Origin: Dehalobacterium formicoaceticum
Lineage (GTDB): Bacteria; Bacillota; Dehalobacteriia; Dehalobacteriales; Dehalobacteriaceae
DNA length: 64,000 nt
Assembly: GCF_002224645.1 (NCBI RefSeq)
Contig: NZ_CP022121.1
Location: 1,928,501 to 1,992,500, forward strand
Direction: 5' to 3'
Below the pieces are notes generated by a model. It was not told the origin of the DNA and ran no database searches. It saw nothing but the letters and a program-made list of their open reading frames with translations. Below are positions 6,022-61,431 of the stretch, piece after piece; position 1 is the first letter of the stretch, and each line of letters starts with the position of its first letter. The translations under genes and the position numbers were made by a program.

Positions 6022-6053
6022 GGATTAAAACCATTATCTAAAGGAGAATGATC

Positions 6054-8546: not shown

Positions 8547-8563
8547 GAAATGAGGTGGTAAAG

Positions 8564-18218: not shown

Positions 18219-19145
18219 ATGACCCAACAAGATGCGTCTTCAGAAGTCAAAGGACTTATTTATAATATCCAAAGATATTCCACGGAAGACGGACCCGGAC
18301 TACGCACCACTGTTTTTTTTAAAGGCTGCCCCCTCAGATGCCTTTGGTGCAGCAACCCGGAGTCCATCTCTCATAAACCCCAAATGATGTTTTTCCCCCA
18401 AACATGTGTCCAGTGTTACGCTTGTCTGGAGGCATGTCCCAAGGGTGCTAATAAAAAGATGGAAGACGGTTCTGTAGTTGTTGACCGGACAATTTGTCAA
18501 AATTGCGGCGCCTGCATCGATGTTTGCCCGGCTAATGCCAGACAGATGTCAGGTAAATGGATGACAGCGGACGAAGTTTTCGAGGTCATCAAAAAAGATT
18601 CTGTTTATTATACCAATTCCGATGGGGGGGTAACCTTCAGCGGCGGGGAGTGTACTGCCCAGGCGGATTTTCTGATCGAGCTGATCGACAAGTGTTACAA
18701 TATGGGATTTCATACCTGTGTTGATACCTGTGGCTTTGCCTCTTGGGAAGTATTGGAGAAGGTTTTATCAAAGGTGGATATGGTGCTCTTTGATATCAAA
18801 CACATGGATCCCGAGAAGCACAAAGAAATCACCGGCGTTGACAATCAGCTGATCTTGGAAAATGCCGGTAAAATTAAAAATATGGGTATTGAGATGCATA
18901 TCAGGTTCCCGATGATTCCCGGGTACAATGATGATGAAAAAAACCTGAAAGCTTTGGGTCGTTTTATGAAATTATGGGGCCTGGACAAGATCGACATTCT
19001 GCCTTATCACCGCATGGGGTCCAATAAATATGAGGCATTGGGCCAAAGATATTTTCTGGGAGACTTACCTTCCCTGGAGAGAGAGAATGTAAAAAAAGCC
19101 GTTAATATCCTGGAGTCCTATGATTTGGAAGTTGATGTAGTTTAA
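18219..19145 (+). CDS. Glycyl radical enzyme activating enzyme for GRE2 (radical SAM)
   Basis: The 308-residue radical SAM protein has cluster motif GCPLRCLWC, two ferredoxin-type clusters (CVQCYACLEACP and CQNCGACIDVCP) and SGGECTAQ, the SAM-binding GGE motif. It should install the glycyl radical on G773 of GRE2. It is clearly related to, but diverged from, the activase at 8564, and its base composition is local. The ATG is preceded by AAAGGAGGACGGG. A terminator follows at 19149. Confidence 0.93.
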   Translation: MTQQDASSEVKGLIYNIQRYSTEDGPGLRTTVFFKGCPLRCLWCSNPESISHKPQMMFFPQTCVQCYACLEACPKGANKKMEDGSVVVDRTICQNCGACIDVCPANARQMSGKWMTADEVFEVIKKDSVYYTNSDGGVTFSGGECTAQADFLIELIDKCYNMGFHTCVDTCGFASWEVLEKVLSKVDMVLFDIKHMDPEKHKEITGVDNQLILENAGKIKNMGIEMHIRFPMIPGYNDDEKNLKALGRFMKLWGLDKIDILPYHRMGSNKYEALGQRYFLGDLPSLERENVKKAVNILESYDLEVDVV

Positions 19146-44393: not shown

Positions 44394-47300
44394 ATGATGA
44401 GTGTAATAATGTATTTTATCATATCTGTTATTTTAGCGCTTTTTATTCTTTATGATTTATTCTTGATGAGTTCTCCTAAAACAGCAGTTAAAGGAAATAT
44501 TATCGGGGCAGGGGCCATATTTATAGCTATTATCGTTACCCTTTATTATTATCAAATAATTGGGTTAGGTATTTTATGGATTTGCCTTTTAATCGGCGGG
44601 GCAATTGGATTATATCTGGGCGGAAGAGTCAAAATGATCCAAATGCCGGAAATGGTAGCATTTCTCCATGGCTTAGGCGGCTTAGCAGCAGTACTCTTGT
44701 CTATTACCGTGTTAACGAATCCTGTGGAAATCACCACCTTTACCTTGACAACAGGAATGCTGGCTTTGGTGGTAGGGGGTCTTACCTTTAGCGGCAGTAT
44801 GGTGGCAGCATCAAAATTGCACGGGGTTATCTCTTCTAAACCGGTGGTTTTCCCCGGACATAATACCATCAGCATCATCACAATATTCGTGATGTTACTC
44901 TCCGTATTATTATCGGTAATTTGGCCTCATTATTTGATTCCCATCTTAGCCTTTAGTTTAATCGTCTCCTTGTTTTTCGGCTATTTGTTTACCATTCGGG
45001 TGGGCGGAGCGGATATGCCTATTACGATCTCCTTGCTCAACTCTTGTTCCGGGGTTACGGGAGCGATGGTAGGTATGGCCACCTATGATCCTTTGCTTGT
45101 AGCCGGAGGAGGTATTGTAGCTTCTGCCGGTTATCTTTTAACGGAAATCATGTGCCGGGCTATGAACCGGAGCTTATTAGATGTACTGGCAGGGAAAACT
45201 ACCCTCAGCGGGAAAAGCGGCGGTGCTAAAGGCGGTGGGTTGCCTAAAAAAGAAGAATCAGCAGTAAAGCAGGAAAAGGCTGCGATTGCGCAGAAAAAGA
45301 CACCCCAACAAATACTGGGCGAAGCAAAAAGTGTGATTCTGGTACCGGGTTACGGCGTGGCTTTGGCTCAAGCCCAATTTGAAGTTAAGAAGCTGGCGGA
45401 TAAGCTGGAGAAACAGGGGAAAGTAGTGAAATTTGCCATTCATCCAGTGGCGGGCCGCATGCCGGGGCATATGAATGTACTTTTGGCGGAAGTGGACGTA
45501 CCTTATGATCAGCTCTATGAAATGGATGCCATCAATCCGGAATTTGCCGCAACCGATGTGGTGATCGTTGTGGGGGCCAATGACGTCGTGAACCCGGCCG
45601 CCAACACAGCGGAAGGCTCACCGATCTACGGCATGCCGATTCTAAACGTGGATCAGGCCAAGCATGTGATTGTGTGCAATTATGATACCAAGCCCGGATA
45701 TGCCGGAGTGGATAATCCTCTCTACAGCAACGATGAAAATGTGACTTTAATTCTGGGGGATGCCAAAGCAACGATTGGGCAGCTGAACGACTCCTTAGAT
45801 GGAAAAAACCCTCAGCAAGCAGGATCTCAGTCCCAAGGCGGACAGGATCAATATCAGGCTCTGCGCGATGCAAAACGGATCATCATTGTGCCCGGTTATG
45901 GTATGGCTTTGGCTCAAGCTCAATTTGAAGTGAAAAAGCTGGCGGATAAGCTGGAGAAACAGGGTAAAGATGTGAAATTTGCTATCCATCCCGTGGCGGG
46001 CCGCATGCCGGGGCATATGAATGTGCTTTTGGCGGAAGTGGATGTACCTTATGATCAGCTTTATGAAATGGATGCCATCAATCCGGAATTTGCCTCAACC
46101 GATGTGGTGATCGTTGTGGGGGCCAATGACGTAGTGAACCCGGCCGCCAATACGGCGGAAGGCTCACCGATCTACGGCATGCCGATTTTAAATGTGGATC
46201 AGTCCAAGCACGTGTTCATCTGCAATTTTGACACCAAGCCCGGTTATGCCGGAGTGGATAATCCTCTTTACAGCAACCAGGACAAAGTAACACTGCTCCT
46301 GGGGGATGCCAAGGATACGGTGGCAAAACTGGACATTGCTCTGGATGCCCAGGAAACACCCGATGAAGCCACCCCGATGACCAAACAGGACCAATATCAA
46401 GCTCTGCGCGATGCGAAACGAATCATTATTGTGCCCGGCTATGGTATGGCTTTGGCTCAAGCTCAATTTGAAGTCAAGAAGCTGGCGGATAAGCTGGAGA
46501 AACAGGGTAAAGATGTGAAATTTGCCATCCATCCTGTGGCGGGCCGCATGCCGGGGCATATGAATGTGCTTTTGGCGGAAGTGGATGTACCTTATGATCA
46601 GCTCTATGAAATGGATGCCATCAATCCGGAATTTGCCTCAACTGATGTGGTGATCGTTGTGGGAGCCAATGACGTGGTGAACCCGGCTGCCAATACGGCG
46701 GAAGGCTCGCCGATTTACGGTATGCCGATTTTAAATGTGGATCAGGCCAAGCACGTGATCATCTGCAATTTTGACACCAAGCCCGGTTATGCCGGAGTGG
46801 ATAATCCTCTTTACAGCAACCAGGACAAAGTAACACTGCTCCTGGGGGATGCCAAGGATACGGTGGCAAAACTGGACATTGCTCTGGATGCCCAGGAAAC
46901 ACCCGATGAAGCCACCCCGATGACCAAACAGGACCAATATCAAGCTCTGCGCGATGCGAAACGAATCATTATTGTACCCGGGTATGGGATGGCTTTGGCT
47001 CAAGCCCAGTTTGAAGTCAAGAAGCTGGCGGATAAGCTGGAGAAACAGGGTAAAGAAGTGAAATTTGCCATCCATCCTGTGGCGGGCCGCATGCCGGGGC
47101 ATATGAATGTGCTTTTGGCGGAAGTGGATGTACCTTATGATCAGCTCTATGAAATGGATGCCATCAATCCGGAATTCGCCGCAACCGATGTGGTGATCGT
47201 TGTGGGAGCCAATGACGTGGTGAATCCGGCCGCCAACACGGCGGAAGGCTCACCGATCTACGGCATGCCGATTCTAAACGTGGATCAGGCCAAGCACGTG

Positions 47301-47435
47301 ATCATCTGCAATTTTGATACCAAGCCCGGTTATGCCGGGGTGGATAATCCTCTTTACAGTAACCAGGACAAAGTAACACTGCTCCTGGGGGACGCCAAGG
47401 AAACCGTGGCCCAATTAGATTCTGAGATCAACTAA
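44394..47435 (+). CDS. pntB: Transhydrogenase beta subunit with four tandem NADP(H)-binding domains
   Basis: PntB is usually about 460 residues; this one has 1013. The N-terminal 265 residues form the ordinary membrane domain (8-9 spans, GHNTISI, RVGGADMPITISLLNSCSG). A lysine/glutamine-rich linker follows, then four copies of domain III instead of one, about 181 residues each. Every copy has the NADP fingerprint VPGYGxALAQAQ, HPVAGRMPGHMNVLLAE, VVGANDVVNPAANTAEGSP and DTKPGYAGVDNPLY. Copies 2-4 repeat at exactly 543 bases and are nearly identical; copy 1 is 546 bases before copy 2 and has diverged most. Linkers between copies contain QETPDEATPMTKQDQYQ. All copies look competent to bind NADP(H). 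Confidence 0.95.
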   Translation: MMSVIMYFIISVILALFILYDLFLMSSPKTAVKGNIIGAGAIFIAIIVTLYYYQIIGLGILWICLLIGGAIGLYLGGRVKMIQMPEMVAFLHGLGGLAAVLLSITVLTNPVEITTFTLTTGMLALVVGGLTFSGSMVAASKLHGVISSKPVVFPGHNTISIITIFVMLLSVLLSVIWPHYLIPILAFSLIVSLFFGYLFTIRVGGADMPITISLLNSCSGVTGAMVGMATYDPLLVAGGGIVASAGYLLTEIMCRAMNRSLLDVLAGKTTLSGKSGGAKGGGLPKKEESAVKQEKAAIAQKKTPQQILGEAKSVILVPGYGVALAQAQFEVKKLADKLEKQGKVVKFAIHPVAGRMPGHMNVLLAEVDVPYDQLYEMDAINPEFAATDVVIVVGANDVVNPAANTAEGSPIYGMPILNVDQAKHVIVCNYDTKPGYAGVDNPLYSNDENVTLILGDAKATIGQLNDSLDGKNPQQAGSQSQGGQDQYQALRDAKRIIIVPGYGMALAQAQFEVKKLADKLEKQGKDVKFAIHPVAGRMPGHMNVLLAEVDVPYDQLYEMDAINPEFASTDVVIVVGANDVVNPAANTAEGSPIYGMPILNVDQSKHVFICNFDTKPGYAGVDNPLYSNQDKVTLLLGDAKDTVAKLDIALDAQETPDEATPMTKQDQYQALRDAKRIIIVPGYGMALAQAQFEVKKLADKLEKQGKDVKFAIHPVAGRMPGHMNVLLAEVDVPYDQLYEMDAINPEFASTDVVIVVGANDVVNPAANTAEGSPIYGMPILNVDQAKHVIICNFDTKPGYAGVDNPLYSNQDKVTLLLGDAKDTVAKLDIALDAQETPDEATPMTKQDQYQALRDAKRIIIVPGYGMALAQAQFEVKKLADKLEKQGKEVKFAIHPVAGRMPGHMNVLLAEVDVPYDQLYEMDAINPEFAATDVVIVVGANDVVNPAANTAEGSPIYGMPILNVDQAKHVIICNFDTKPGYAGVDNPLYSNQDKVTLLLGDAKETVAQLDSEIN
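45303..47435 (+). repeat. Four tandem domain III repeats inside pntB
   Basis: Approximate units: 45303-45810, 45847-46350, 46390-46893 and 46933-47435. Equivalent VPGYG codons fall at 45342, 45888, 46431 and 46974, giving spacings of 546, 543 and 543. Units differ mainly at silent positions, indicating recent duplication or gene conversion. Confidence 0.95.
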
Positions 47436-47634: not shown

Positions 47635-49377
47635 ATGGCAAAAGTTAGAATGACACCCAGTGAAGCAATGACAGAAGTGCTCTTGCAAGAAGGCGTCGAT
47701 CACGTAACAGGGATTGTAGGATCTGCATTTATGGATATGTTGGATCTATGGCCCACAGCAGGTATTAAATTCTATCCCGTGCGGCACGAACAAACTGCCG
47801 CTCATATGGAAGACGCTTATGGCCGCATTACCGGTAAAGCCGGTGTTTGTATCGGACAAAATGGACCTGGGATGACCAACATGGTGACCTCAGTAGCTGC
47901 TGCTAATATGGCTCATACCCCCATGGTTGTAATCGGCCCTTCCGCCGGTTCCTCCACTGTAGGCTGGGACGGTTTCCAGGAATGTAATCAAGTACAGGTA
48001 TTTAAAGCGGTCACCAAAGCGGTTTTACAGGTTACTCATCCCAGCAGAGCTGGAGATGTCATGAGAACAGCCTTCCGTACCGCTTATGCAGAACGTGGCC
48101 CGGTATATGTGGATGTACCCCGTGACTTTTTCTACGGAGAAGTAAATGAAGAAATTCTGCCCCCATATCGCTATCGTGCATTGAATACCCGAGGCGCCGG
48201 GGATCCGGTGGAATTGGCTCGAGCCGCTGAAATCCTGGCCAACGCCAAGAATCCGGTGATCATTTCCGGTCGTGGTGCGGTAGACTCAGAAGCCTTTGAT
48301 GAAATTAAAGCATTGGCAGAACATTTATCTGCTCCGGTAGCAGTTAGCTATCTCCATAATGATGCTTTCCCGGCAGATCATCCCCTGTGGGTAGGACCTA
48401 TTGGTTATATGGGTTCCAAAGCAGCCATGTATGCTGTGAAGGATGCGGATGTGATTTTGGCTGTAGGTTGCAGACTATCCGTTTTTGGTACTCTGCCTCA
48501 GTATGATATCAACTATTTCCCGGAAGATGCCAAGATCATCCAAATTGATGTTAATCCCAAACAGATCGGCCGCCGTCATCCCGTGGAAGTTCCCATTGTG
48601 GGCGATGCTAAACTTGCTGCCAGTGAACTATACAAACAATTAAAGGCTAAGGGTGATCGTCAGCCGGATGCCGGAAGATTGGCTAAAGTTAAAGAATTAC
48701 AGAATAACTGGAATCAGGAACTTAAAGATTTGGCCATGGAACCGGGAACACCCATGAATCCTCGCCGAGTGCTCTATGAAATAAGCGGCATGATGCCTGG
48801 AAACGGTATTCTTTGCACCGACATTGGGAACGTTTCCTCCACTGCCAACAGCTACTTTAAATTTACCCAATCCAGGAGACATATTGCTGCTTTGACCTTT
48901 GGTAACACCGGTTTTGCTTATCCCGCAGGCCTGGGTGCCCAATTGGCTGATCCGGAAAGCCCGGTTGTATGTATCATCGGTGACGGTGCCTGGGGCATGA
49001 GCTTGCACGAAATCAGCACTGCTGTTGAGCACAATCTGCCGGTTATCGCCTGTGTATTCAGAAATATGGGCTGGTGTGCAGAAAAGAAAAACCAAATCGA
49101 CTTCTACAACAACCGTTTCGTCGGCGTTGATATCCCCAATCCTATCAGCTTCGTGCCGGTAGCTCAGGCATTAGGTGCTGAGGGAGTCAGAATTGAAAAA
49201 GAAGATCAGATTCAGGGCGCATTTGAGCAAGCCTTGGCTTCCAGAAAGCCCACCGTGCTGGAATTCTGTGTGGATGGAACGCAGTTGGCACCTCCCTTCA
49301 GAAAGGATGCTTTGGCATTACCGACCCGTCATTTAGAAAAATATGCTCACTTGGATTACAGAAACTGGGATAAATAA
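47635..49377 (+). CDS. xsc: Sulfoacetaldehyde acetyltransferase (thiamine diphosphate enzyme)
   Basis: The 580-residue enzyme converts sulfoacetaldehyde and phosphate into acetyl phosphate and sulfite. The N-terminus [29 protein letters not shown] and the [15 protein letters not shown] region (ThDP-activating Glu in HEQ) match Xsc proteins better than acetolactate synthases. The C-terminal ThDP-magnesium motif is [19 protein letters not shown]. It is the key step of taurine, isethionate and related sulfonate breakdown. The enzyme producing sulfoacetaldehyde (such as taurine-pyruvate aminotransferase) is not in this window. ATG follows CAAGGAGG. A clear terminator follows the gene. Confidence 0.87.
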
Positions 49378-49472: not shown

Positions 49473-49737
49473 GCATTATGTGTTTAGTCTGGATTTCTTA
49501 CAGCTAAGTGACAGGTAATTAATTTGCTAATTTTAAAGGAAATGTGTTATATTGTGTCGAAATGTATATTGTCATAATGTAAATAATAATTGCCTGCTGA
49601 TCAAACTAAATTATAATTTCCCACATAACATGAAGAATCAATCTTTCATGGCAGTGAGAGGAATTAGAAGAACCGGACTGTAAGAAAATTTTTAGATTTT
49701 CTTTTTTTTGATGATTTTTAAGAATGGGGTACTAAAC

Positions 49738-51327
49738 ATGGAAAAGGACTTTATCTTGACAATTGAGCACGTTTTGAATTCTCCTCATTTTAAAAAAGGA
49801 GAAATTATCGCCGGTACGGCAGGAATTAAGCGCAGGATTAAGTGGGTGCATATCTTGGACTCCCAATTATATGATAGCCTTACAGGCAATGAATTTATTC
49901 TTTCCACCGGACGTGTTTTTACTGATTTGGAGACCGGTCTTTCCTTTTTACAGAATCTGATTAAGAGGAATGTTTCCGGCCTATGTGTAGAATTGGTTTC
50001 CCATATTACTTCTATTCCTGATGAGTTGATTAAATTGGCGGATGAACACGATTTTCCCTTGGTGGTATTTCGTGATACCGTAAATTTCATCGATGTCACC
50101 CGGGATCTGCACACGATGATCATTACCAAAGATTCCATTACCTTTTCTCGGATGGAGGAGTTTTCCGCAAAGCTAAACGAGATCCTCCTGGCTTCTCATG
50201 ATATGGAAGATATTTTAGCAGTGGTACATCAGTTTACGGGGCAAAATGTGGTTTATGTGCCGGCCCAGGGAGAAGCTGTTTTTGTGCCTTCTATACCCAT
50301 GGCAGAACGGAAGGGTTTTCTTAAATTTGCTGCCCAAGGTCTGATCAGAGACCTCAACCTTTCTTTTGTCAGCAGACCCATTAACGTCCTAAACCGAAAA
50401 TGGGCGGATGTGTTTCTTTTTTCCGGGCAGCACGAATTGCAGGATATTGAAATTTTAATTTTGGATCGGGTGGTTGTGGCCCTAGCTCAGGAGCTGCTGC
50501 GGGAATTATCCGGGCAGGAGAAAAGAAACCATGAGGAGAACCTTTGGATTATGGGCTGGCTCAAGGGGCGTCTTCCCGAATACGAAGTAACCCATAAATT
50601 GAGTCAATCTGTGCTGAAGACGGATGTTTCCGGCTATCTGGTTTGCGTCCTAAGGTTGAATAACCCATCCAGACAAGATAAGCATTTAAATAAATTTATG
50701 ACTCATACCATGATTGTGGCACGCTCCCTCTTTGAGGAAGAAGGATTCTATTTATTAGGCACATGTGAAGCCGATCAATTAGTTTTTGTGCTCTTGGATT
50801 ATAATTCAGGGAGCGCTTGGAAAAAGAAGCTGCCCAAAATTATTGATCAGCTGCAATTGAGGAATCATTCTCTGCCCAAAGGTGTTCAAGCCTTTTACGG
50901 GGTAGGAAAAAGAGTTACCCTGGTAAACGAGGTAAAGCTCAGCTATGAGACAGCTTTGGATGCCATTGCTATTCAAAAAAGAACCGGGAAAAATGAGCCT
51001 ATTTATGATGACTTACACATTTATCGCATTATTTCTTTATTGGATCGGGTCAGTAATTTGGATAATATGATTGATGAATACCTGACACCAGTCATTAAAT
51101 ATGATCAAGAGCACCACACGGAATTGATGAAAACCCTGGAGGTTTATTTAAGCTCCAATGGATCGAAACAGCAAACAGCGGAGCTGCTCTTCATTGTACG
51201 CCAAACCCTCTATCTGCGCATCCAAAAGCTGGAGCATCTTTTGGGTGAGGATTTTATGAAGGCGGAAAAACGTTTAGCCATCGAACTGGCTCTTTGTGCT
51301 TATAATTACAAAAGAACGGTTTCTTGA
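49738..51327 (+). CDS. PucR-family transcriptional regulator
   Basis: About 529 residues. The N-terminal PucR domain (residues 1-120, FILTIEHVLNSPHFKKGEIIAG) is followed by a GGDEF-like CdaR middle domain (YGVGKRVTLVNEVKLSYETALDAI) and a C-terminal helix-turn-helix of the HTH_30 type (LEVYLSSNGSKQQTAELLFIVRQTLYLRIQKLE). PucR proteins activate catabolic genes on sensing a substrate. It is the only regulator in this block and is the obvious candidate for the shared promoter blocks upstream of pntAA, xsc and others. ATG at 49738 lies after AATGGGG. A strong terminator follows. Confidence 0.9.
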   Translation: MEKDFILTIEHVLNSPHFKKGEIIAGTAGIKRRIKWVHILDSQLYDSLTGNEFILSTGRVFTDLETGLSFLQNLIKRNVSGLCVELVSHITSIPDELIKLADEHDFPLVVFRDTVNFIDVTRDLHTMIITKDSITFSRMEEFSAKLNEILLASHDMEDILAVVHQFTGQNVVYVPAQGEAVFVPSIPMAERKGFLKFAAQGLIRDLNLSFVSRPINVLNRKWADVFLFSGQHELQDIEILILDRVVVALAQELLRELSGQEKRNHEENLWIMGWLKGRLPEYEVTHKLSQSVLKTDVSGYLVCVLRLNNPSRQDKHLNKFMTHTMIVARSLFEEEGFYLLGTCEADQLVFVLLDYNSGSAWKKKLPKIIDQLQLRNHSLPKGVQAFYGVGKRVTLVNEVKLSYETALDAIAIQKRTGKNEPIYDDLHIYRIISLLDRVSNLDNMIDEYLTPVIKYDQEHHTELMKTLEVYLSSNGSKQQTAELLFIVRQTLYLRIQKLEHLLGEDFMKAEKRLAIELALCAYNYKRTVS

Positions 51328-51600: not shown

Positions 51601-51607
51601 GTATTAA
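51601..51607 (+). repeat. 7-bp target duplication, left copy
   Basis: GTATTAA directly before the left inverted repeat is repeated directly after the right one at 53132-53138. Confidence 0.85.
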
Positions 51608-53131
51608 CTCAACTTTCGCAGAAAGAAACAGCCAGTCGTTCCTTGAAAAACGAGGGTAAATTGCTGATTAAGAAGTCAATCAGTTTGCGGATTTCTGCCT
51701 CTGCCAGTTGTAGTTGCTCTTGTAAAAATTGTTCCATTAGGAAGAAGATTCTCTGTAGCGCCTCCACTAAGCTGATATCCTGTAACTCGTCGCAACAGAT
51801 GTAGAAAAGGTTGCCAATGGTTCTCGGGTCTTCACCGTTTCGGCTCTCCAAAGCCAGCATGATGTATCGGATAAACACGATGGTAACGTGCGCCACCATG
51901 GAATCATAAGAACGTCCCTGAAACTCTTTGGACAACCCGAGATAGGACTTGGACATCTTGAAGAAAACCTCGATGTTCCAACGCTTCCCATAAATGCGGA
52001 TGACCTCTTCATCCGGAAGTTCAGTATCGGTGGTGAGGAGCGCTAGCCATTTCTTCTTGGCTCTTCTGTCCCTGACAAATACGATCTTAGCTTGTACTGG
52101 TTCGCCGCTTGACATCTGGCCAATTTCTACAATGATAGAGGCAAGGACTTTGGCCCGACCCCGTTTCTTTTTGACTGCGGCATACAGCTTGTTCAGGGTG
52201 AGATTTTGTCCCTGGTATTCATATTTGACTGTGGGCATCGACTTAAGCATACAGATGGTGTGAAGTTGCTGTTCCAATACCTTTCTGATCACGACGGGAA
52301 AGGAAAACCAACTGTCAAACAGGAGGTAGCTGGCCGGAACCATGTACGCCTTGGCTTGTTTTAGCAGTTCCAACAACACTTCAGTGCTCTTGTGGATAGC
52401 CTCTTTACGTCTCTTATAGCCGTTTGTCCGTTTGTCCATAGCATTCATGCCTTGTAGTCGGTTCGATTCCTTCTCTGAGCTAAGCAGGGAGAAGGCTAGA
52501 GGCAAAAAGGTGTTGCCGTCTGACCAACCCAAGGTTAGCATTCGGAAGCCTCGGACGTATTTGTGTTCCACATGGTCGTAGACCCTAGCCAGAAGTTCTA
52601 CTGCCTTGCTTCGGGATCGACTGAAAAGGGAGTCATCGATGATAAAGACATTGACTCGCTTCTCGTCAGTGAGCGGTACGATGTGGTTTTGAATGATCTG
52701 GGAGCTGAGCAGCAGCAAGAACTTACGCCAGTTGTAGTAGCAGTTGTTCAGAAATCGGTAGACAGCATCTTTTTGAAATGGGGCGTTGTTGGCATCGGTG
52801 TTCAGATAGCGCCATAGGTTTTTGCCCATAAAGATCAGCGTCACGAGAAACTGTAGTAGGTCTTTGCAAGGAAAGCCCTTCTGTTTAAAAAAGTTCGACT
52901 GCTTTAATGTTTGGCCAATTTTATGTTCCTTGAAAAAGTTTGCAACGTAATTGGCTGACTCCTTTTCAGAAGCTATTTTTTTTGGTAATATAGAAGTCAC
53001 AAGAACACCCTTCTTTCTATGGAATAATTGGGTTTTGTCACTTCAATTTTACCATATCGAGGGGGTGTTTTTGTTGTTAAATTTCATATTTACCAAGGGT
53101 TTGAGGACATTTTTCTAGTGCGAAAGTTGAG
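51608..53131 (-). mobile_element. Complete IS4-family insertion sequence, about 1.52 kb
   Basis: Ends are 13-bp perfect inverted repeats (CTCAACTTTCGCA at 51608-51620 and its complement at 53119-53131). They are flanked by the 7-bp direct duplication GTATTAA. One intact transposase gene fills the element. The perfect duplication and intact gene suggest recent insertion. It separates the PucR gene from the ABC transporter genes. Confidence 0.95.
51609..53000 (-). CDS. IS4-family DDE transposase
   Basis: The 463-residue transposase has the DDE catalytic residues in VFIIDDSLFS and LLFDSWFS, and a Glu in the IS4 signature Y-(2)-R-(3)-E-(6)-K, seen as YGKRWNIEVFFKMSK. The stop codon lies inside the left inverted repeat, as is common in compact elements. 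No frameshift or internal stop is seen, so it may be active. Confidence 0.95.
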   Translation of the reverse strand: MTSILPKKIASEKESANYVANFFKEHKIGQTLKQSNFFKQKGFPCKDLLQFLVTLIFMGKNLWRYLNTDANNAPFQKDAVYRFLNNCYYNWRKFLLLLSSQIIQNHIVPLTDEKRVNVFIIDDSLFSRSRSKAVELLARVYDHVEHKYVRGFRMLTLGWSDGNTFLPLAFSLLSSEKESNRLQGMNAMDKRTNGYKRRKEAIHKSTEVLLELLKQAKAYMVPASYLLFDSWFSFPVVIRKVLEQQLHTICMLKSMPTVKYEYQGQNLTLNKLYAAVKKKRGRAKVLASIIVEIGQMSSGEPVQAKIVFVRDRRAKKKWLALLTTDTELPDEEVIRIYGKRWNIEVFFKMSKSYLGLSKEFQGRSYDSMVAHVTIVFIRYIMLALESRNGEDPRTIGNLFYICCDELQDISLVEALQRIFFLMEQFLQEQLQLAEAEIRKLIDFLISNLPSFFKERLAVSFCES

Positions 53132-53343: not shown

Positions 53344-54096
53344 ATGTCTGTAACAAAAAGAGAAGCCAAGGTAAGCGTAAACAATTTAACGAAAAGCTTT
53401 GGCGATCTGTTGGTCTTAAATGACATTAATTTCACCGTGGGTAAAGGTGAATTTCTTGTGATTGTGGGACCGACAGGATGTGGCAAGACCACCTTTTTAA
53501 ATGTGCTTTCCACCCTTTATCCTGCCACCAAAGGGAATATTTTAATTGACGGGGAACCGGCTGATCCCAAGAAACACAATATTTCCTTCGTTTTTCAGGA
53601 GCCATCCTGTCTGCCTTGGCGCACCGTGCGGGATAACATCGCCTACGGCATGGAAGTAAAGAAATTTCCCCCCGATAAACTAAAAAAAGAATTGGATAAA
53701 GTGATGGAAGTGGTAGGACTGACAGAATGTGCCGATCTTTATCCCAACCAGATTTCTTCCAGTATGGAACAAAGGGTGGCCATTGCCAGGGCCTTTTCCG
53801 TCAATCCGGACCTGCTCCTGATGGACGAGCCGTATGGACAACTGGATGTGAAGCTGCGCTTCTATCTGGAGGATGAACTGATCCGTATCTGGAAGGAATT
53901 TGGAAATACCGTACTTTTTGTCACCCATAATATTGAAGAAGCTGTTTATGTGGCGGAAAGAATCTTAATCCTCAGCAATAAACCGACAACGATCAAGGCC
54001 GAGGTCCATGTGGATTTACCAAGACCTCGTAATTATCTTGATCCGGAATTTATTCGGATCAGAAAAGAAGTTACTGAATTAATAAGGTGGTGGTGA
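53344..54096 (+). CDS. ABC transporter ATPase 1 (NitT/TauT type) with degenerate signature motif
   Basis: This 250-residue importer ATPase has Walker A GPTGCGKTT, Walker B LLLMDEPYGQLD and an intact H-loop (VTHNIEEA). The signature usually reads LSGGMxQR; here it is ISSSMEQRVAIARA, with both glycines gone. In a heterodimer with ATPase 2 (57022), its own nucleotide site would be completed by the intact signature of the partner, while its bad signature faces the partner's site. It heads the group ATPase 1-binding protein-permease 1-permease 2-ATPase 2. The start ATG follows GGGAGTG. Confidence 0.9.
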   Translation: MSVTKREAKVSVNNLTKSFGDLLVLNDINFTVGKGEFLVIVGPTGCGKTTFLNVLSTLYPATKGNILIDGEPADPKKHNISFVFQEPSCLPWRTVRDNIAYGMEVKKFPPDKLKKELDKVMEVVGLTECADLYPNQISSSMEQRVAIARAFSVNPDLLLMDEPYGQLDVKLRFYLEDELIRIWKEFGNTVLFVTHNIEEAVYVAERILILSNKPTTIKAEVHVDLPRPRNYLDPEFIRIRKEVTELIRWW

Positions 54097-54205
54097 TTAT
54101 TGGGTTCAGTGAGATAGAATAACTTATGGTTTTTTTGTTTCAAGGATCAAGATTTTGGCGCTGATTTTTCTTATGATTTTCCAAAAGAAAATGGAGGTAA
54201 GAAAC

Positions 54206-55306
54206 ATGAAAAAATGCTCTTCTTTTAAGTTATTGGCAGTTTTCCTCGGCTTGATTTTGTTTTCTTTTGCGTTAACCGCGTGCGGCGGCTCTAATGGCAC
54301 AGATTCAGGAGATGGGGATAAAGTTACTAAATTAAATGCAGCCTTTTTAGGTCAAATTGATGCCTGGCCCATCTATACCGCAACTATGGACGGTACTGAT
54401 GAAAAATATGGCTTGGATATCGAAATGATGTTTTTTGACTCCGGGATGCCCATGATTGAAACCTTGCCGGCAAAACAATGGCAGATCGCGGATGCCGGTA
54501 GTGTGCCTTCTCTGATGGCCAGCTTAAGGTATGATGTGGAAATGGTCGGTATCGCTTCCGATGAATCCCCGGCCAATGCGGTTATGGCCAGAGCAGACAA
54601 TGCGGTCTTTAAAACCCAAGGTTCCAATCCTGATTTTCCGAAAGCTTTTGGCAGCGCGGATGACGTGCGGGGCAAAACCTTCCTGGTAACCACCGTATCC
54701 AGCGGCCATTACACCTTATCAAAATATTTGGAAGCCCTGGGATTGACTGAAAAAGATGTTGTCATTAACAACCTGGAACAAGCTCAGGCGATCAAAGCCT
54801 TTGAAAGCGGCGAGGGAGATTTCCTGGTATTATGGACGCCCTATATGTATCGTGCCTTTGAAAAAGGTTGGAAAACAGTAGCAGATGCTTCGCAGGTTGG
54901 TGCTACCACATTGATGATGTTCCTGGCTGAAAAAGATTTTGCCGCAGAACATCCTGAATTAGTCGCTCAGTTCCTGGCAGCCAATAACGAAAAAACTAAA
55001 AGATATCTTAGTGAAGGGGTAGCCTTAGTCCCGGAAATTCAAACCTATTACAAGGATTGGGCAGCTATGGATATTTCGGAGTCAGATGTTAAACTGGATA
55101 TCGAAACCCATAAACTATATACCATTGAAGAGCAAATTGCGATGATGGAAAGCGGCGAATTAGAAGCTTCCCTCACGGATGCCGCCAACTTCTTTGTTAA
55201 CCAAAACAAATTTAAACCGGAAGAATTTGATCAATTAAAAGCAAAGAAATTTGGGATTAACCCGGCTTACTTAAAAGCAGCTTTAGAAGTAAAACCTGCT
55301 GAATAA
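54206..55306 (+). CDS. ABC transporter substrate-binding lipoprotein (TauA/NMT1-like)
   Basis: The roughly 366-residue lipoprotein has a signal peptide (basic MKKCSSFK, then a hydrophobic stretch) and lipobox LTACGG, so it is anchored outside the cytoplasmic membrane. The mature part resembles the taurine/nitrate/thiamine-precursor binding family (PF09084-like). ATG at 54206 follows GGAGG; an earlier ATG at 54155 would put extra residues before the signal peptide. The gene closes with a strong terminator, perhaps making the binding protein the most abundant component. Linkage to xsc favours a sulfonate such as taurine. Confidence 0.88.
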   Translation: MKKCSSFKLLAVFLGLILFSFALTACGGSNGTDSGDGDKVTKLNAAFLGQIDAWPIYTATMDGTDEKYGLDIEMMFFDSGMPMIETLPAKQWQIADAGSVPSLMASLRYDVEMVGIASDESPANAVMARADNAVFKTQGSNPDFPKAFGSADDVRGKTFLVTTVSSGHYTLSKYLEALGLTEKDVVINNLEQAQAIKAFESGEGDFLVLWTPYMYRAFEKGWKTVADASQVGATTLMMFLAEKDFAAEHPELVAQFLAANNEKTKRYLSEGVALVPEIQTYYKDWAAMDISESDVKLDIETHKLYTIEEQIAMMESGELEASLTDAANFFVNQNKFKPEEFDQLKAKKFGINPAYLKAALEVKPAE

Positions 55307-55318
55307 TGATGTACTTCT

Positions 55319-55353
55319 CGGAGGTAGAAGGTGTTGCCTTCTACCTCCGTTTT
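55319..55353 (+). terminator. Terminator after the binding protein gene
   Basis: A perfect 13-bp stem (CGGAGGTAGAAGG/CCTTCTACCTCCG) with a 5-base loop is followed by TTTT. Partial read-through would supply the two permeases and ATPase 2. Confidence 0.85.
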
Positions 55354-55407
55354 AACAAGTCATTGCTGCACCTTTAGTTCAGATGTCATCAATTTGGGAG
55401 TGATAAA

Positions 55408-56199
55408 ATGGAGGTCAAAAATAGCGGCAATAGTTTATTTTTGCGAGTGTTGCCTTTAATCACCATCGTCTTATTCTTTGTTTTTTGGGAACTGATTGTT
55501 GTGTTTGGTGTAGTGCCGAACCAGTTATTGGCGTCCCCTACCCAGGTGGTTGCCCTGTTTATTGATAAGCTGACCAATGTTAATCCCGACGGTGCTCTTC
55601 TTTGGGATCATGCGAAAGTCAGTTTGATGGAGGGGCTTACCGGGTATATTTTGGCTTTGGTTATTGGTATTCCCCTTGGTTTGGCCATGGGATGGTTTAA
55701 AACCCTGGACGGTTTGGTTCGTCCCATCTTTGAGATTGTTCGTCCGATTCCGTCAGTTGCCTGGATTCCTTTATGCATCATCTGGTTTGGTACGGGACTG
55801 GCCAGTAAAGCCTTCATCATTTTCGTCGGCGGCTTGGTGCCCTGTGTCATCAATTCTTACGCCGGTGTACAAATGACCAATCCCACCTTTATTCGTATGG
55901 CTCGAACCTATGGGGCGAATAATTGGGAAATATTTAAAAATATTTGTGTACCGTCGGCTTTACCAATGGTATTTGGCGGCTTACAGGTGGCGCTGGCGGC
56001 TTGCTGGACCTGTTTGGTTGCCGCAGAATTGGTTGGGGCTGATGCCGGTCTGGGATTTTTGATCACTATGGGCAGACGGTTGCTCATGCCTGATATGATT
56101 ATCTTAGGTATGGTCATGGTTGCTCTCACCGGGGTTATTATGGCGATTATTATTGACAAGGTAGAGAAACGCCTCGTAAAAGGGCTAAGAAGGGGGTAA
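55408..56199 (+). CDS. ABC transporter permease 1 (TauC/SsuC type)
   Basis: The 263-residue membrane protein has about six spans and the cytoplasmic coupling motif around residues 160-185 (ARTYGANNWEIFKNICVPSALP; the EAA loop that docks to the ATPase). It belongs to the binding-protein-dependent inner-membrane permeases for nitrate, sulfonates and taurine. It pairs with permease 2, encoded four bases after it, to form a heterodimeric channel. Confidence 0.92.
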   Translation: MEVKNSGNSLFLRVLPLITIVLFFVFWELIVVFGVVPNQLLASPTQVVALFIDKLTNVNPDGALLWDHAKVSLMEGLTGYILALVIGIPLGLAMGWFKTLDGLVRPIFEIVRPIPSVAWIPLCIIWFGTGLASKAFIIFVGGLVPCVINSYAGVQMTNPTFIRMARTYGANNWEIFKNICVPSALPMVFGGLQVALAACWTCLVAAELVGADAGLGFLITMGRRLLMPDMIILGMVMVALTGVIMAIIIDKVEKRLVKGLRRG

Positions 56200-56203
56200 A
56201 AAA

Positions 56204-57043
56204 GTGAGCAAACAAGCATTAGAAGCAAGCTGCCCGGCCGATGCCAATGTCAACAAAGGACCGAATCAGCTATTAAACCTTCTGCGCAATAAGCGTGTTT
56301 TAAATCTAATCTCCATCCTTTCCTTTTTAGGCATCTGGGATTTGCTGGTGCTTTACGGATTCGCCCCATTAATGCCCAGGCCCATTGAAGTTGTTCAGTC
56401 TTTATATCAGATGCTTATAGAACCACTGGCAGGAAAAACGATCATTGGTCACGTCTGGATCAGTTTTCGCCGGGTAATTATTGCCTTTTTCATTGCTGCC
56501 GGAATCGGGATTCCCATTGGGGTCCTGATGGGATTTAATAAATATGCCTATGCCATAATTAAACCCATTTTTGAATTTTTCAAACCCATGCCTCCTATTG
56601 CCTGGATTTCATTATCCATTTTATGGTTTGGGATCGGAGAAACCTCTAAGATATTTATTATTCTTATTGGAGCCGTGGTTCCTGTGATCATTAACTCCTT
56701 TAACGGAATTCGTTTAGTGGAGCCGGAACTGTATGATTGTATCAGAAATCTGGGTGCCAATTATCGGCAGGAACATATACAGGTGACCTTTCCTGCCTCT
56801 TATCCGGCAATTTTTGCCGGATTGCAAGTAGCCCTCAGTACCTCATGGACCTGCGTCGTAGCTGCTGAACTGGTGGGAGCGAGAGAAGGGGTAGGCTTTA
56901 TTATCGTTCAAGGTATGAATGTGGATAATACGGCGATGATTATTGCCGGGATGTTAGTCATCTGTCTCGTATCTTTTCTTAGTTCGCTCGCCATAAACTA
57001 TGTGGAAAGGTGGCTTTGTCCATGGAAAAGAACGCTGGATTAA
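56204..57043 (+). CDS. ABC transporter permease 2 (TauC/SsuC type)
   Basis: The 279-residue membrane protein has about six spans, with an EAA loop near IRNLGANYRQEHIQVTFPASYP. It is related to permease 1 but clearly diverged (both have ALxxxWTCxVAAELVGA). Having two different permease genes is unusual in this family, which normally uses a homodimer, and fits the two different ATPases. It begins just after permease 1 and overlaps the start of ATPase 2. Confidence 0.92.
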   Translation: MSKQALEASCPADANVNKGPNQLLNLLRNKRVLNLISILSFLGIWDLLVLYGFAPLMPRPIEVVQSLYQMLIEPLAGKTIIGHVWISFRRVIIAFFIAAGIGIPIGVLMGFNKYAYAIIKPIFEFFKPMPPIAWISLSILWFGIGETSKIFIILIGAVVPVIINSFNGIRLVEPELYDCIRNLGANYRQEHIQVTFPASYPAIFAGLQVALSTSWTCVVAAELVGAREGVGFIIVQGMNVDNTAMIIAGMLVICLVSFLSSLAINYVERWLCPWKRTLD

Positions 57044-57819
57044 AGAAGACGCAAAAGAAATCGACGGCTCCGGAAGGGAAAAAGATGATCGAATTCGTCG
57101 GCACGACCAAGAATTTTGATGAGAAAAAAGTCTTGAGCGAAATGGACTTTTCCGTATATGAAAACGAATTTGTTGTCATCCTGGGACCGGGGCAGTCGGG
57201 GAAAAGCACCCTATTCCGCATGATTGCCGGGTTTGAACAACCGACGACCGGAAAGGTCTATGTGGATGGTAAGGAAGTAGACGGACCGGGACCTTCCGTA
57301 GGTTTCGTTTTCCAAAGATACACCCTTTTCCCTTGGCAAACCGTGTTGGGAAATGTGGAAATGGGTCCGAAACTACGTGGCGTGCCCAAAAAAGAAAGAA
57401 GAGAACGGGCGGCCCATTATATTAAATTAGTTGGCCTTGAAGGATTTGAAGATCGTTATCCCCATCAGCTGAGCGGGGGTATGAAGCAGCGGGTAGGGAT
57501 TGCCCGAGCCTATGTAAATGAGCCGAAGCTGCTTCTTTTGGATGAACCTTTCGGCCAATTAGATGCACAGACCAGAATTTTAATGGAACAGGAAATCAGT
57601 CGGATCTGGGAAGCAGACAAAAGGACGATTTGTTTTGTCACCAATAATATTGATGAAGCGATTTTCCTGGCGGATCGCATCATCACTTTAGACGGCAAGC
57701 TGCCTGGTCGTATGAACAGAAGTTACGATGTCAATTTGCCCCGGCCCAGGGAATTTACCGACCTGGAATTTTTGAAATTACGACAGCAAATAACGGATGA
57801 AACCGAATTAGTATTATAG
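57022..57819 (+). CDS. ABC transporter ATPase 2 (NitT/TauT type) with altered H-loop
   Basis: The roughly 265-residue ATPase has intact Walker A (GPGQSGKST), signature LSGGMKQRVGIARA and Walker B LLLLDEPFGQLD, but the H-loop His is replaced by Asn (FVTNNIDEA instead of VTHDIDEA). ATPase 1 has the complementary defect in its signature. Together they predict one normal and one degenerate ATP site, as in heterodimeric ABC proteins. The ATG at 57022, inside the last codons of permease 2, implies translational coupling; the ORF is open further upstream. Confidence 0.9.
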   Translation: MEKNAGLKKTQKKSTAPEGKKMIEFVGTTKNFDEKKVLSEMDFSVYENEFVVILGPGQSGKSTLFRMIAGFEQPTTGKVYVDGKEVDGPGPSVGFVFQRYTLFPWQTVLGNVEMGPKLRGVPKKERRERAAHYIKLVGLEGFEDRYPHQLSGGMKQRVGIARAYVNEPKLLLLDEPFGQLDAQTRILMEQEISRIWEADKRTICFVTNNIDEAIFLADRIITLDGKLPGRMNRSYDVNLPRPREFTDLEFLKLRQQITDETELVL

Positions 57820-58004: not shown

Positions 58005-58080
58005 TGACACTTTGTCTATTTCATCTTATTAACATCTTAACAGAGTGCTTAATGAAAGGAAATTTCAATTATCGTATAAT
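58005..58080 (+). promoter_or_regulatory. Activator-type promoter of the APC permease
   Basis: TGACACTTTGTC at 58005 and CAGAGTGCTTAATG at 58041 are related to the pnt and xsc blocks. A perfect TATAAT at 58075-58080 falls exactly 70 bases after the first block, as the -10 does in the other members. The middle block is less conserved here. Confidence 0.45.
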
Positions 58081-58168
58081 TATGATAACGAAAATCAAAA
58101 TATTTAAAGGAGGGAATAAGGAGAAAGCTATAGTTTACGAAACTTATAAAATTTGGGAGGGGTTTTTT

Positions 58169-59659
58169 TTGCAAGAAAAGGCGCAATTAGAACGAAATTT
58201 AAAACCGTCCAATGTTTGGGCGCTGGCTCTGGGCAGTATTATAGGCTTTGGTTGTTTTGTTTTACCAGGTGATTGGATGAGAATCGCGGGTCCCTTAGGG
58301 GCAGCCATCGGTTTGGCTTTAGGGGGTCTTTTGATGATGGTTATTGGCAACAGCTATGGTTTTATGGTTAAAACCATTCCTGTGGCCGGGGGCGAGTTTG
58401 CTTATTCCTACAGTACTTTTGGCAGATATCATGCCTATTTTTGCGGTTGGCTATTATCTTTAGGTTATTTTTCCATCGTTCCTATTAATGCAACGGCGAT
58501 CCCCATTTTAGGGCAGTTTATCTTACCGGATATTTTCAGCCAGTATTATTTATATACCATTGCCGGCTGGGATGTTCATTTAGCCGATGTCGTTGTGGCA
58601 AGTGTGGCAATTCTGTTCTTCGGCTATATGAATTATCGCGGTGCTGATGTGGTGGGGCAATTCCAATTATTGATGGTCGTGATCTTAGTGGGCTCGGTCT
58701 TTTTATTAGCCGGCGGGGCCGTAATCTCTCCTGGGGCAACCTTCAGCAATTGGCAGCCACTTTTTGCTCCGGGAAACAGCGCTATTGCAGGAATTCTGGC
58801 GATCGTTGCCATTTCCCCCTGGTTATTCGTGGGCTTTGATACCATTCCTCAGGCGGCAGAAGAATTTAATTTCTCACCCAAACAAGGCCGCAATCTGATT
58901 TTTTTAGCCATCTTTTTTGGCGCTATTATGTATGTCCTGGTAACCTTATCTACCGCTATTGCCCATCCCTGGCAGGAATTGCTGGGTGCCAGCCCCATTT
59001 GGGCTACCGGTCAGGCCATGACCGATATGTTAGGACCCATTGGATTGGCAATTTTGGTCGCGGGAGTATTAATGGGGATTTTTACAGGAATTAACGGATT
59101 TTACATGGCGTCCAGCAGATTGTTGTTCGGGATGTCACGGGCAAAAATTTTGCCGGAATGGTTTTCCAAAATTCATCCCAAGCATAATACCCCTTCCAAT
59201 GCAGTACTCTTTGTGATGGTGATCGCCTTAATTGCACCCTGGTTTGGCCGGGCGGTAATTTCCTGGATCGTGGATATGTGTGCGGTAGGTACAGCGGTTG
59301 GTTACGGTTACACTGCTTTTTCTGCTTATATCCTAAGCGGTAAAGCCGGTAATGAAGAGGATAGAAAAGGACGTGCTTTCCATCTGTTTGGTTCCTTGGC
59401 TTCCTTGACATTTCTCGTCTTATTGTTGGTACCGGGCATGCCGGCCTTTTTATCCATCCCCTCCTGGGTGGCTTTGGGAGTATGGCTGGGACTGGGAGCG
59501 ATCTTTTACCTGGTTAAAGTAGGTGAATACAAGAAAATTCCCGATAATGAATTGGATCAACTGATTCTCGGCGAAAATGCCCAGGCGATTCGTAAAAATT
59601 TCAACGGGAAAGCTAATGCAAAGATCAGCGTAGCCCCAAAGCAGGGCCGGACCAGATAG
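58169..59659 (+). CDS. APC-superfamily amino acid/amine permease
   Basis: The roughly 496-residue membrane protein has about 12 spans. The first contains the APC helix-1 signature GSIIGFGCFVLPGDW. TTG at 58169 is chosen because GGGAGGGG lies six bases upstream; an ATG at 58052 would add 39 poorly conserved hydrophilic residues with no good site. The substrate is unknown: an amine, amino acid or amino-sulfonate (taurine-like) is possible from context. Transcription probably shares the activator of the xsc block. Confidence 0.88.
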   Translation: MQEKAQLERNLKPSNVWALALGSIIGFGCFVLPGDWMRIAGPLGAAIGLALGGLLMMVIGNSYGFMVKTIPVAGGEFAYSYSTFGRYHAYFCGWLLSLGYFSIVPINATAIPILGQFILPDIFSQYYLYTIAGWDVHLADVVVASVAILFFGYMNYRGADVVGQFQLLMVVILVGSVFLLAGGAVISPGATFSNWQPLFAPGNSAIAGILAIVAISPWLFVGFDTIPQAAEEFNFSPKQGRNLIFLAIFFGAIMYVLVTLSTAIAHPWQELLGASPIWATGQAMTDMLGPIGLAILVAGVLMGIFTGINGFYMASSRLLFGMSRAKILPEWFSKIHPKHNTPSNAVLFVMVIALIAPWFGRAVISWIVDMCAVGTAVGYGYTAFSAYILSGKAGNEEDRKGRAFHLFGSLASLTFLVLLLVPGMPAFLSIPSWVALGVWLGLGAIFYLVKVGEYKKIPDNELDQLILGENAQAIRKNFNGKANAKISVAPKQGRTR

Positions 59660-59907
59660 AGTGAATCTTCTATCAGTGGGGGTTTTTCGGACAAGCAGGG
59701 CGTGATCAATAATTTGCATATTATCAGGTAGATTTTTAATCCGCGGGAAGCTGGGAAACTCATTAAGGAACTAGTTACCACTATATCCAACCATTAACAG
59801 GATGGGGGGATTAGTGGTAATTAGTTTTTAGGAAAAAGAGACTTAAAAACAAGGATTTAATAAAATTATATCGAAACTATTTATGTTAGTAATAAGGAGG
59901 GAGTAAT

Positions 59908-61431
59908 TTGGATTATACTAAAGACTATATCAAGGTGCGAAATTTTATTAATGGTGCATGGATTGAAGAAGCGGCCTGTGATCAGCTGACTATCTATAAC
60001 CCATCTACCGGAGAGGCAATTGGAGAAGTTCCCTGTACCGGTCAGGAAAGGGTACAGGAAGCCATTGATGCTGCCCATACCGCCTATCAAACCTGGCGTA
60101 AGGAATCCGTCCACAAGCGGGTTTCCTATCTGTTTGAGCTGCGTAATAAGATGAAGGAATATGTGGAGGAATTGGCTTCGATCATTGCCGTTGACCAAGC
60201 GAAGCATATTGAGGATGCCCGGGGCGAGGTAAATCGAGTGATTCAGATTGTGGAGACGGCCTGTGCCATCCCCATGCTGACCCGGGGGGAAAAAATCGAA
60301 ATCGGGGGCGGTATGGAGGGACAAATAGTGCGTAAGCCCTTAGGGGTGATCGCCGGGATTTCGCCCCATAACTTCCCCGCTTTGATTTTTGGCTGGTTCA
60401 TTCCTTATGCTATTGGTACCGGGAATACCATTGTCTATAAAGCCAGCGAGCAATCTCCTTTATTTATGCAAAGAATGATGGAAATATTTCAAGAAATTGG
60501 ACTGCCCCCGGGAGTGGTCAACCTGGTAAACGGAGATTATAATGTAGGAGAAAGCCTGATGGCCAGTCCTAAGGTGCGGGGGGTTTGTTTTGTCGGCTCC
60601 ACCCCGGTGGGCAAGCATATTTCAGAGGTATGCGGTCGCGAAGGAAAGAGGGCCATGGTTTTGGCCGGGGCCAAAAATTCTCTGCTGGTGATGGAAGACG
60701 TGAAAATGGAGGGCTTTATCGGTCAATATCTTAATTCCTGCTATGGTGCCGCGGGGCAAAGATGTATGGCCGGCTCCGTAATTGCCGCTGTACCGGAAAT
60801 TTATGACCAGGTCAAGACAGCCATGATCGAGGCAGCTCAAAAACTGAAGGTGGGGGACGCCACCGATCCCAGCGTTTTTGTAGGGCCGGTGATCTCTCAG
60901 AAACATTTGGACCGGGTTCTGGAATATGTGGAGCTTGGTCTAAAAGAAGGGGCTAATTTGGCTTTGGATGGCAGAAATCCACAGCTTCCGGAAAAAAATC
61001 AAGAAGGATATTTTATCGGTCCCACGATTTTATCGGAGGTTACACCGGAAATGCGGGTAGCTCAGGAGGAGATTTTCGGTCCTGTGGTTTCCCTGATGAA
61101 GGTGGACAATCTGGATCATGCCCTGGAAGTCATGAACAGCTCTCAATTTGGCAATGGGGGGGCCATTTTCACCCAAAACGGCTATTATACCCAAAAGTTC
61201 CTGGATGAGATTGAAGTAGGGATGGCCGGTGTCAATGTTGGGGTGCCTGCTCCTGTGCCCTATCTGCCCTTTGGCGGGACCAAGAACTCCATTTTCGGCA
61301 GCGGTATTAAAGCCCAGGGACAAGACGGTGTAGAGTTCTTCACCCAACGGAAGGTAGCCACCATTAAATATTTCCCGGAGGAGACTCATCAGGCGACACC
61401 AAAGGAAGAAGCGAGTAAAAGTGCATTTTAA
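59908..61431 (+). CDS. CoA-acylating aldehyde dehydrogenase (methylmalonate-semialdehyde dehydrogenase type)
   Basis: This 507-residue NAD-dependent dehydrogenase has the substrate-binding segment ISPHNFPALIFGWFIPYAIG, AGAKNSLLVMEDV and the catalytic Cys in GAAGQRCMAGS (C286). In the CoA-dependent MmsA/IolA family the Cys is likewise in the GQRCM context. The reaction is semialdehyde + CoA + NAD to acyl-CoA + NADH (+ CO2). The physiological aldehyde is open: malonate or methylmalonate semialdehyde, or another aldehyde from the sulfonate/amine pathway of this block. TTG is the start behind AAGGAGGGAG. It abuts yraN, with which it may be co-transcribed. Confidence 0.88.
   Translation: MDYTKDYIKVRNFINGAWIEEAACDQLTIYNPSTGEAIGEVPCTGQERVQEAIDAAHTAYQTWRKESVHKRVSYLFELRNKMKEYVEELASIIAVDQAKHIEDARGEVNRVIQIVETACAIPMLTRGEKIEIGGGMEGQIVRKPLGVIAGISPHNFPALIFGWFIPYAIGTGNTIVYKASEQSPLFMQRMMEIFQEIGLPPGVVNLVNGDYNVGESLMASPKVRGVCFVGSTPVGKHISEVCGREGKRAMVLAGAKNSLLVMEDVKMEGFIGQYLNSCYGAAGQRCMAGSVIAAVPEIYDQVKTAMIEAAQKLKVGDATDPSVFVGPVISQKHLDRVLEYVELGLKEGANLALDGRNPQLPEKNQEGYFIGPTILSEVTPEMRVAQEEIFGPVVSLMKVDNLDHALEVMNSSQFGNGGAIFTQNGYYTQKFLDEIEVGMAGVNVGVPAPVPYLPFGGTKNSIFGSGIKAQGQDGVEFFTQRKVATIKYFPEETHQATPKEEASKSAF

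Follow-up and report, generated by a model that had tools for sequence, protein, structure and literature searches.

Can an importer of the taurine/nitrate/sulfonate class run on two unlike ATPases, each of which departs from the canonical motifs where the other is intact? The question is raised by a five-gene operon of Dehalobacterium formicoaceticum, found in a stretch of 64,000 nucleotides (the window; positions 1928501-1992500 of a single-contig genome of 3,766,545 bases, NZ_CP022121.1). Its two ATP-binding cassette (ABC) proteins, here termed ATPase1 and ATPase2, carry complementary motif changes that recur in relatives from several phyla. The operon is proposed, with a probability of roughly 0.77, to encode an obligate-heteromer importer with one consensus and one degenerate ATP site, with taurine, or another C2 sulfonate close to it, as its most likely substrate.

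The operon and its ATPase motifs

The genes are on the forward strand in the order ATPase1, substrate-binding protein, permease 1, permease 2 and ATPase2 (Table 1), and are bounded by an IS4-type insertion element and an APC-type amino acid permease. Domain content and gene order place the operon among the type I ABC importers of the taurine/nitrate/sulfonate class. The translated binding protein displays a lipobox, LTACGG; its matches to TIGR01728 (E = 1.7e-25) and to the TauA model TIGR01729 (E = 9.6e-24, 84.3 against a cut-off of 304) are both under the curated cut-offs.

ATPase1 has the motif series GPTGCGKTT / ISSSMEQR / LLLMDEPYGQLD / THNIEEA, with the Walker B context LLLMDEP, and ATPase2 the series GPGQSGKST / LSGGMKQR / LLLLDEPFGQLD / TNNIDEA. 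A first-pass annotation of this DNA had described ATPase1 as lacking the signature glycines and keeping the H-loop His, and ATPase2 as having a perfect signature with Asn in the H-loop; both descriptions are exact at the codons listed in Table 1. A third departure, absent from that annotation, is a Gln as the fourth residue of the ATPase2 Walker A motif. The catalytic Glu, the Walker A Lys and the Q-loop Gln are retained in both subunits. Neither protein looks like the product of a decaying gene, since both single-chain models are confident, with a mean predicted local distance difference test score of 90.4 for ATPase1 and 90.1 for ATPase2. The best PDB matches of the ATPase1 model are CmpD and NrtD. 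In a motif survey that took in further ABC domains of this genome, an Asn H-loop and a Gln in Walker A were found only in ATPase2 and an SSS signature only in ATPase1.

Table 1. Coordinates of the importer genes, their motifs and other features (window positions unless marked as contig positions).
Feature	Position	Strand	Remarks
ATPase1	53344..54096	+	ABC ATPase, 250 amino acids; PF00005 above cut-off; from open reading frame and translation
Substrate-binding lipoprotein, SsuA/TauA (NMT1-like) type	54206..55306	+	Start ATG; PF13379 and PF09084 above cut-off
Permease 1, BPD_transp_1, TauC/SsuC type	55408..56199	+	PF00528 above cut-off
Permease 2, BPD_transp_1, TauC/SsuC type	56204..57043	+	PF00528; 3′ end overlaps ATPase2 start
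ATPase2	57022..57819	+	ABC ATPase, about 266 amino acids; PF00005; ATG at 57022, alternative GTG at 57010
ATPase1 Walker A, GPTGCGKTT	53467..53493	+	Canonical; part of the normal site
ATPase1 signature, ISSSMEQR	53752..53775	+	LSGG with both Gly substituted; first Ser retained
ATPase1 H-loop His195 (THN)	53926..53928	+	From translation
ATPase2 Walker A, GPGQSGKST	57184..57210	+	Fourth residue Gly to Gln (codon 57193-57195)
ATPase2 signature, LSGGMKQR	57469..57492	+	Canonical
ATPase2 H-loop Asn (TNN)	57643..57645	+	In place of His; from translation
Xsc, sulfoacetaldehyde acetyltransferase	47635..49377	+	TIGR03457, 881 bits, cut-off 676
PucR/CdaR-like regulator	49708..51327	+	Weak NCBIfam matches to AdeR, PmfR and CdaR only, all under cut-offs
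IS4-family insertion element	51605..53131	-	NF049925, 616.6 bits; between regulator/xsc and importer operon, outside the importer
APC-type amino acid permease	58052..59659		Downstream boundary of the operon
LivG/LivF-type pairs (L206, L208)	contig, about 1001200-1002730 and 724460-725940		D-loop Asp also lost

Conservation in relatives

Orthologues of ATPase1 were gathered from sampled whole genomes and from GTDB contigs, which were searched with conserved peptides; the set is a sample, not a census. After removal of identical sequences it comprises at least 61 ATPase1 and at least 59 ATPase2 proteins, which at 80% identity form 38 and 39 clusters. Their sources are Clostridia (Faecalicatena, Caproiciproducens, Oscillospiraceae and Peptococcaceae), Desulfovibrio, Desulfobacteraceae, Treponema and Brachyspira, together with metagenome-assembled genomes labelled Planctomycetota and Deltaproteobacteria, several phyla in all.

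LSGG is found in none of the 61 sampled ATPase1 proteins. With two exceptions, LLASM (locus L047) and LSAGM (locus L181), their signature is [LVIM]-S-[ASVTI]-S, and the second signature Gly is replaced by Ser in 60 of the 61, the Gly being present in L181 (LSAG). The H-loop His is invariant (61/61), as is the Gly at residue 4 of Walker A (60/60); Walker A, the Q-loop and the Walker B Glu are also retained. Among the ATPase2 proteins the signature is SGG in 59 of 59, and the H-loop residue is Asn in 58 and Ser in one, so that His occurs in 0/59. Residue 4 of Walker A, readable in 58 of them, is Gln in 55 and His, Leu or Glu in one each, and is Gly in none (0/58). As a control, 71 of 71 related ATPases of the same class that fall outside the family have, in the same alignment, SGG, His and the Walker A Gly. 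The substitutions are thus not absent in relatives, and the search for paired variants in other genomes that the first-pass annotation had called for bears out the pairing of motif states: the complementary pair is present in 56 of 56 loci with a classifiable ATPase2 on the same fragment, with an H-loop Asn in 55 and Ser in one. Median pairwise identity among the orthologues is 60% for ATPase1 and 56% for ATPase2, and maintenance of the motifs despite this divergence argues for selection. Local degeneration or a sequencing error in one genome was ruled out by the 61 and 59 orthologues; with the same states in 38 and 39 clusters from several phyla, its probability is negligible.

In these loci the two ATPase genes share a strand. 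They are either adjacent, in the order ATPase2-ATPase1, or ATPase2 is situated about 2-4.5 kb downstream across the binding-protein and permease genes. Operons with adjacent ATPase genes are termed type B; in type A operons the ATPase1 gene comes first and is separated from that of ATPase2. The closest relatives of the window importer, at 76-81% identity, include type A loci. A few percent of the genomes sampled have the family. Counted by phylum, each identified here by one of its genomes, it was present in 12 of 297 (L032), 11 of 198 (Brachyspira), 7 of 398 (Faecalicatena) and 1 of 199 genomes (the Planctomycetota metagenome-assembled genome). No relatives turned up in a search of plasmids. 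The importer family is real, conserved, well defined and asymmetric.

Origin of the subunits

In a phylogenetic tree, ATPase1 and ATPase2 form separate sister clades (support for the ATPase2 clade is 100/99), and the two together split from other ATPases with support of 95/85. Permease 1 and permease 2 likewise form two separate clades, so that all four core subunits of the complex are different. The tree and the motifs indicate that the ATPases represent an old duplication with complementary specialisation.

An unusual pair is present at locus L181 (3352-4874, reverse strand). Its ATPase1-like protein has LSAGM, with one Gly remaining, and the partner, which is unclassified, has ISGGM and TNN with a canonical Walker A motif and occupies a basal position in the ATPase1 clade. 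An intermediate stage of evolution, a separate second origin or gene conversion could each account for this pair. A clean ATPase1/ATPase2 chimera was also considered for the partner; identity taken window by window (ATPase1-like at about residues 51-100, ATPase2-like at 101-175) is suggestive, not decisive.

Arrangement of the ATP sites

Which motifs of two ABC subunits share one composite site was taken from published work (PMC7756269). By simple arithmetic from the motifs, all three departures would map to one composite site of an ATPase1:ATPase2 dimer and the other site would be fully canonical. The first-pass annotation had placed the defects at the same nucleotide site of a heterodimer, leaving one normal site, and this follows from the motifs once the pairing is granted. 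The two ATPases strictly co-occur (56/56) and form sister clades; an obligate ATPase1-ATPase2 heterodimer is a well-supported inference. A homodimer of either ATPase alone would have no fully canonical site. Both homodimers were judged less coherent, that of ATPase1 with its two bad signatures and that of ATPase2 with two altered H-loops and two altered Walker A motifs.

The proposed importer would assemble from the binding protein, both permeases and both ATPases as an obligate heteromer. Its consensus site would be formed by Walker A, Walker B and the H-loop His of ATPase1 with LSGG of ATPase2, and would hydrolyse ATP. The degenerate site would consist of the Walker A Gln and H-loop Asn of ATPase2 with the SxS signature of ATPase1; it probably binds ATP and would represent the static or slow-turnover half of the dimer. 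The transport cycle would then be powered mainly by hydrolysis at one site, and there is moderate support for placing this hydrolysis at the site of the ATPase1 Walker motifs and the ATPase2 signature.

It might be argued that ATPase1 is a regulatory protein or pseudo-ATPase that has lost its transport function, and that ATPase2 works as a homodimer. The non-consensus signature would fit such a role, as would the location of ATPase1 at the head of type A operons, away from ATPase2, but ATPase1 retains Walker A, the Q-loop, the Walker B Glu and the H-loop His (61/61), an ATPase2 homodimer would be without His at either site and the two genes are adjacent in type B operons. This explanation is very improbable.

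Candidate substrates

The gene for sulfoacetaldehyde acetyltransferase, xsc, is found 4 kb upstream of the importer, and Xsc is probably the enzyme downstream of the imported substrate. The nearest type A operons (L113, L114 and L115) adjoin the alanine dehydrogenase gene ald, a gene for a taurine-pyruvate-type aminotransferase (tpa) and/or xsc, the last in L114 and L115. A homologue of the L113 aminotransferase (Tpa), with 62% identity, is encoded elsewhere in the D. formicoaceticum genome. The importer is therefore associated with genes of taurine dissimilation, with ald, tpa and xsc through orthologous operons and with xsc in the window itself. A taurine pathway has been published for Desulfotomaculum ruminis, at Desru_0588-0590 (PMC3569383). 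From these neighbourhoods the best guess is that the window importer carries taurine or a related C2 sulfonate, which would feed Xsc.

Type B operons (L016, L043, L045, L050, L055, L117 and others) have sulfatase genes downstream of them, and TauE-type exporters and radical SAM proteins are encoded nearby. This suggests sulfate esters or other organosulfur anions as type B substrates, and type B loci possibly form a module for sulfate-ester import and desulfation in gut Clostridia and spirochaetes. It has also been considered that both types carry other organosulfur anions, such as sulfate esters, sulfosugar products or other sulfonates, and that taurine is not the main substrate here. The type B neighbours would agree with this, as would further loci that adjoin transketolase or LarA-like genes and a binding protein that is above the cut-off of no taurine model. 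Among the closest relatives of the window importer, however, are type A loci immediately next to ald, tpa and xsc, and a general role in the uptake of other anions is regarded as unlikely, although less so than the other alternatives.

Points against the proposed importer

Several considerations weigh against a heteromeric taurine importer with a single working site. The heterodimer is deduced from sequences, and the structural models are of single chains. In the window neither ald nor tpa adjoins the importer, and a regulator and an insertion element separate xsc from it. As the NCBIfam scores for the taurine binding protein and for TauB are far under their cut-offs, the assignment of taurine is drawn from the neighbourhood only. 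Lastly, an H-loop Asn is tolerated in MRP1, where a His-to-Asn mutant of nucleotide-binding site 2 kept wild-type-like transport (PMC7756269), and both sites of the present pair retain the catalytic Glu, so that the odd site may still hydrolyse ATP.

Carried further, this last point would mean a genuine heterodimer in which both sites hydrolyse, the SxS signature, Gln in Walker A and Asn in the H-loop being co-variants that are tolerated and adjust rate or coupling without disabling a site. Conservation of the Walker A Lys and Q-loop Gln in both subunits, besides the catalytic Glu, is consistent with this, and in DppD/DppF, a non-identical pair, both subunits are able to hydrolyse ATP (PMC12136057). 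Yet all members of the family have changes in three independent motifs of one site, and a change of signature and H-loop at the same site is a known degenerate-site pattern of characterised exporters (PMC7756269). Hydrolysis at both sites is thus considered improbable, and a single main site of hydrolysis is preferred.

Relation to known transporters

TauABC and SsuABC have one ATPase gene and one permease gene each. The protein families of all five subunits, including the SsuA/TauA-type binding protein, and the taurine/sulfonate catabolism neighbourhood are shared with these systems; the difference is that the importer described here has two ATPases, two permeases and one altered ATP site, in place of a TauB or SsuB homodimer. 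The TauABC equivalog cut-offs were not reached by the ATPases (TauB, 186.8 and 215.6 against 357), the binding protein (see above) or the permeases (TauC, 151 and 154 against 342), and with all scores under curated cut-offs, membership of TauABC was rejected.

NrtBCD and CmpBCD have a single permease gene, B. They (8w9m, 8wm7 and 9u9z) provide the best fold matches, are among the best sequence matches and also have two non-identical ATPases. The view of the first-pass annotation that taurine/nitrate-type importers normally use identical ATPases does not hold generally for the nitrate type, as NrtC/NrtD and CmpC/CmpD are non-identical. The nearest solved relatives, CmpC, CmpD and NrtD, which are the three of these four ATPases whose motifs were read and which all come from heterodimeric importers, differ in that SGG and the H-loop His are intact. 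Membership was rejected here as well, in view of the length of CmpC/NrtC, the C subunits with their regulatory C-terminal domain (665-690 amino acids, against 250 and about 266), and the two permease genes. The Sao system (NF040729/NF040733) was rejected on its scores, 213 and 227 against 360 for SaoA and 154 and 164 against 295 for SaoP.

The complementary logic of ATPase1/ATPase2 is shared by LivF/LivG of branched-chain amino acid importers and by UrtD/UrtE. The same genome has LivG/LivF-type pairs, the best NCBIfam matches of which are LivG and LivF, under equivalog cut-offs; one subunit has LPYG(D/Q)QRR with His and the other LSGG with an H-loop Gln. These belong to another ABC family, show LPYG and Gln rather than SxS and Asn, and have a changed D-loop and an unchanged Walker A. 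The present ATPases were not assigned to LivFG, a family marked by LPYG and EQN motifs; their 25 best listed NCBIfam matches are without LivF or LivG, and the top ones are SaoA, NtrCD, TauB and similar models. RbsA and NupO belong to importers with one degenerate ATP site, but they carry both nucleotide-binding domains on one chain, are of type II and have lost the second Walker A Lys (PMC11466899). In the heterodimeric or asymmetric exporters TM287/288, BmrCD, TAP, MRP1 and Pdr5, the signature of one nucleotide-binding domain and further motifs of its partner are altered at one site (PMC7756269), as in the importer; the fold is that of exporters, and the Walker B Glu, kept in the importer ATPases, is often changed.

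Neighbouring and other genes of the window

The PucR/CdaR-like regulator may, judging from its position, control xsc and the importer. The IS4-family element ends in terminal inverted repeats CTCAACTTTCGC. Three identical copies are present in the genome, which suggests recent activity. Directly downstream of the importer (58052-61431), the APC-type permease is followed by an acylating aldehyde dehydrogenase of the methylmalonate-semialdehyde dehydrogenase type (TIGR01722 above cut-off); a link of these two to the catabolism served by the importer is possible.

Elsewhere, an open reading frame of 1013 amino acids (44394-47435, forward strand) encodes an NAD(P) transhydrogenase beta-subunit with four tandem NADP-binding (dIII) domains rather than one. 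The copies are spaced by about 181-182 amino acids and show 84-96% DNA identity across a 450-base stretch, which is unusual. The open reading frames at 6048-8501 and 15737-18133 resemble glycyl radical enzymes, as judged from their translations, and an apparent radical SAM activase is encoded after each (8555-9460 and 18219-19145).

Significance

The principle of one degenerate site is already known from LivG/LivF-type pairs and from RbsA/NupO. What appears to be new is its presence in the taurine/nitrate class, together with its strictness and three-motif form; no description of this ATPase pair was found in the open-access literature, subscription papers being outside the search. It is tentatively suggested, at somewhat less than even odds, that the family represents a widespread undescribed clade of type I importers of organosulfur anions in anaerobes, whose one-active-site ATP engine is the outcome of a duplication followed by complementary decay, with an origin separate from those of LivFG, RbsA and the exporters. 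Such an engine might provide cheaper transport in ATP per molecule or one-directional coupling.

The role of degenerate sites, and the need for two ATP sites, is an old question that has been studied mostly in exporters. Here the asymmetry is confined to one site and carried on separate small subunits, so that the halves could be mutated or swapped independently. CmpCD, NrtD and TauB-like proteins, near relatives with intact motifs, provide natural controls, and the L181 pair, with LSAG and Asn, is a possible intermediate for study. The family also offers a two-motif marker for a transporter tied to the use of taurine and sulfate esters in anaerobes, gut-associated Clostridia and spirochaetes among them.

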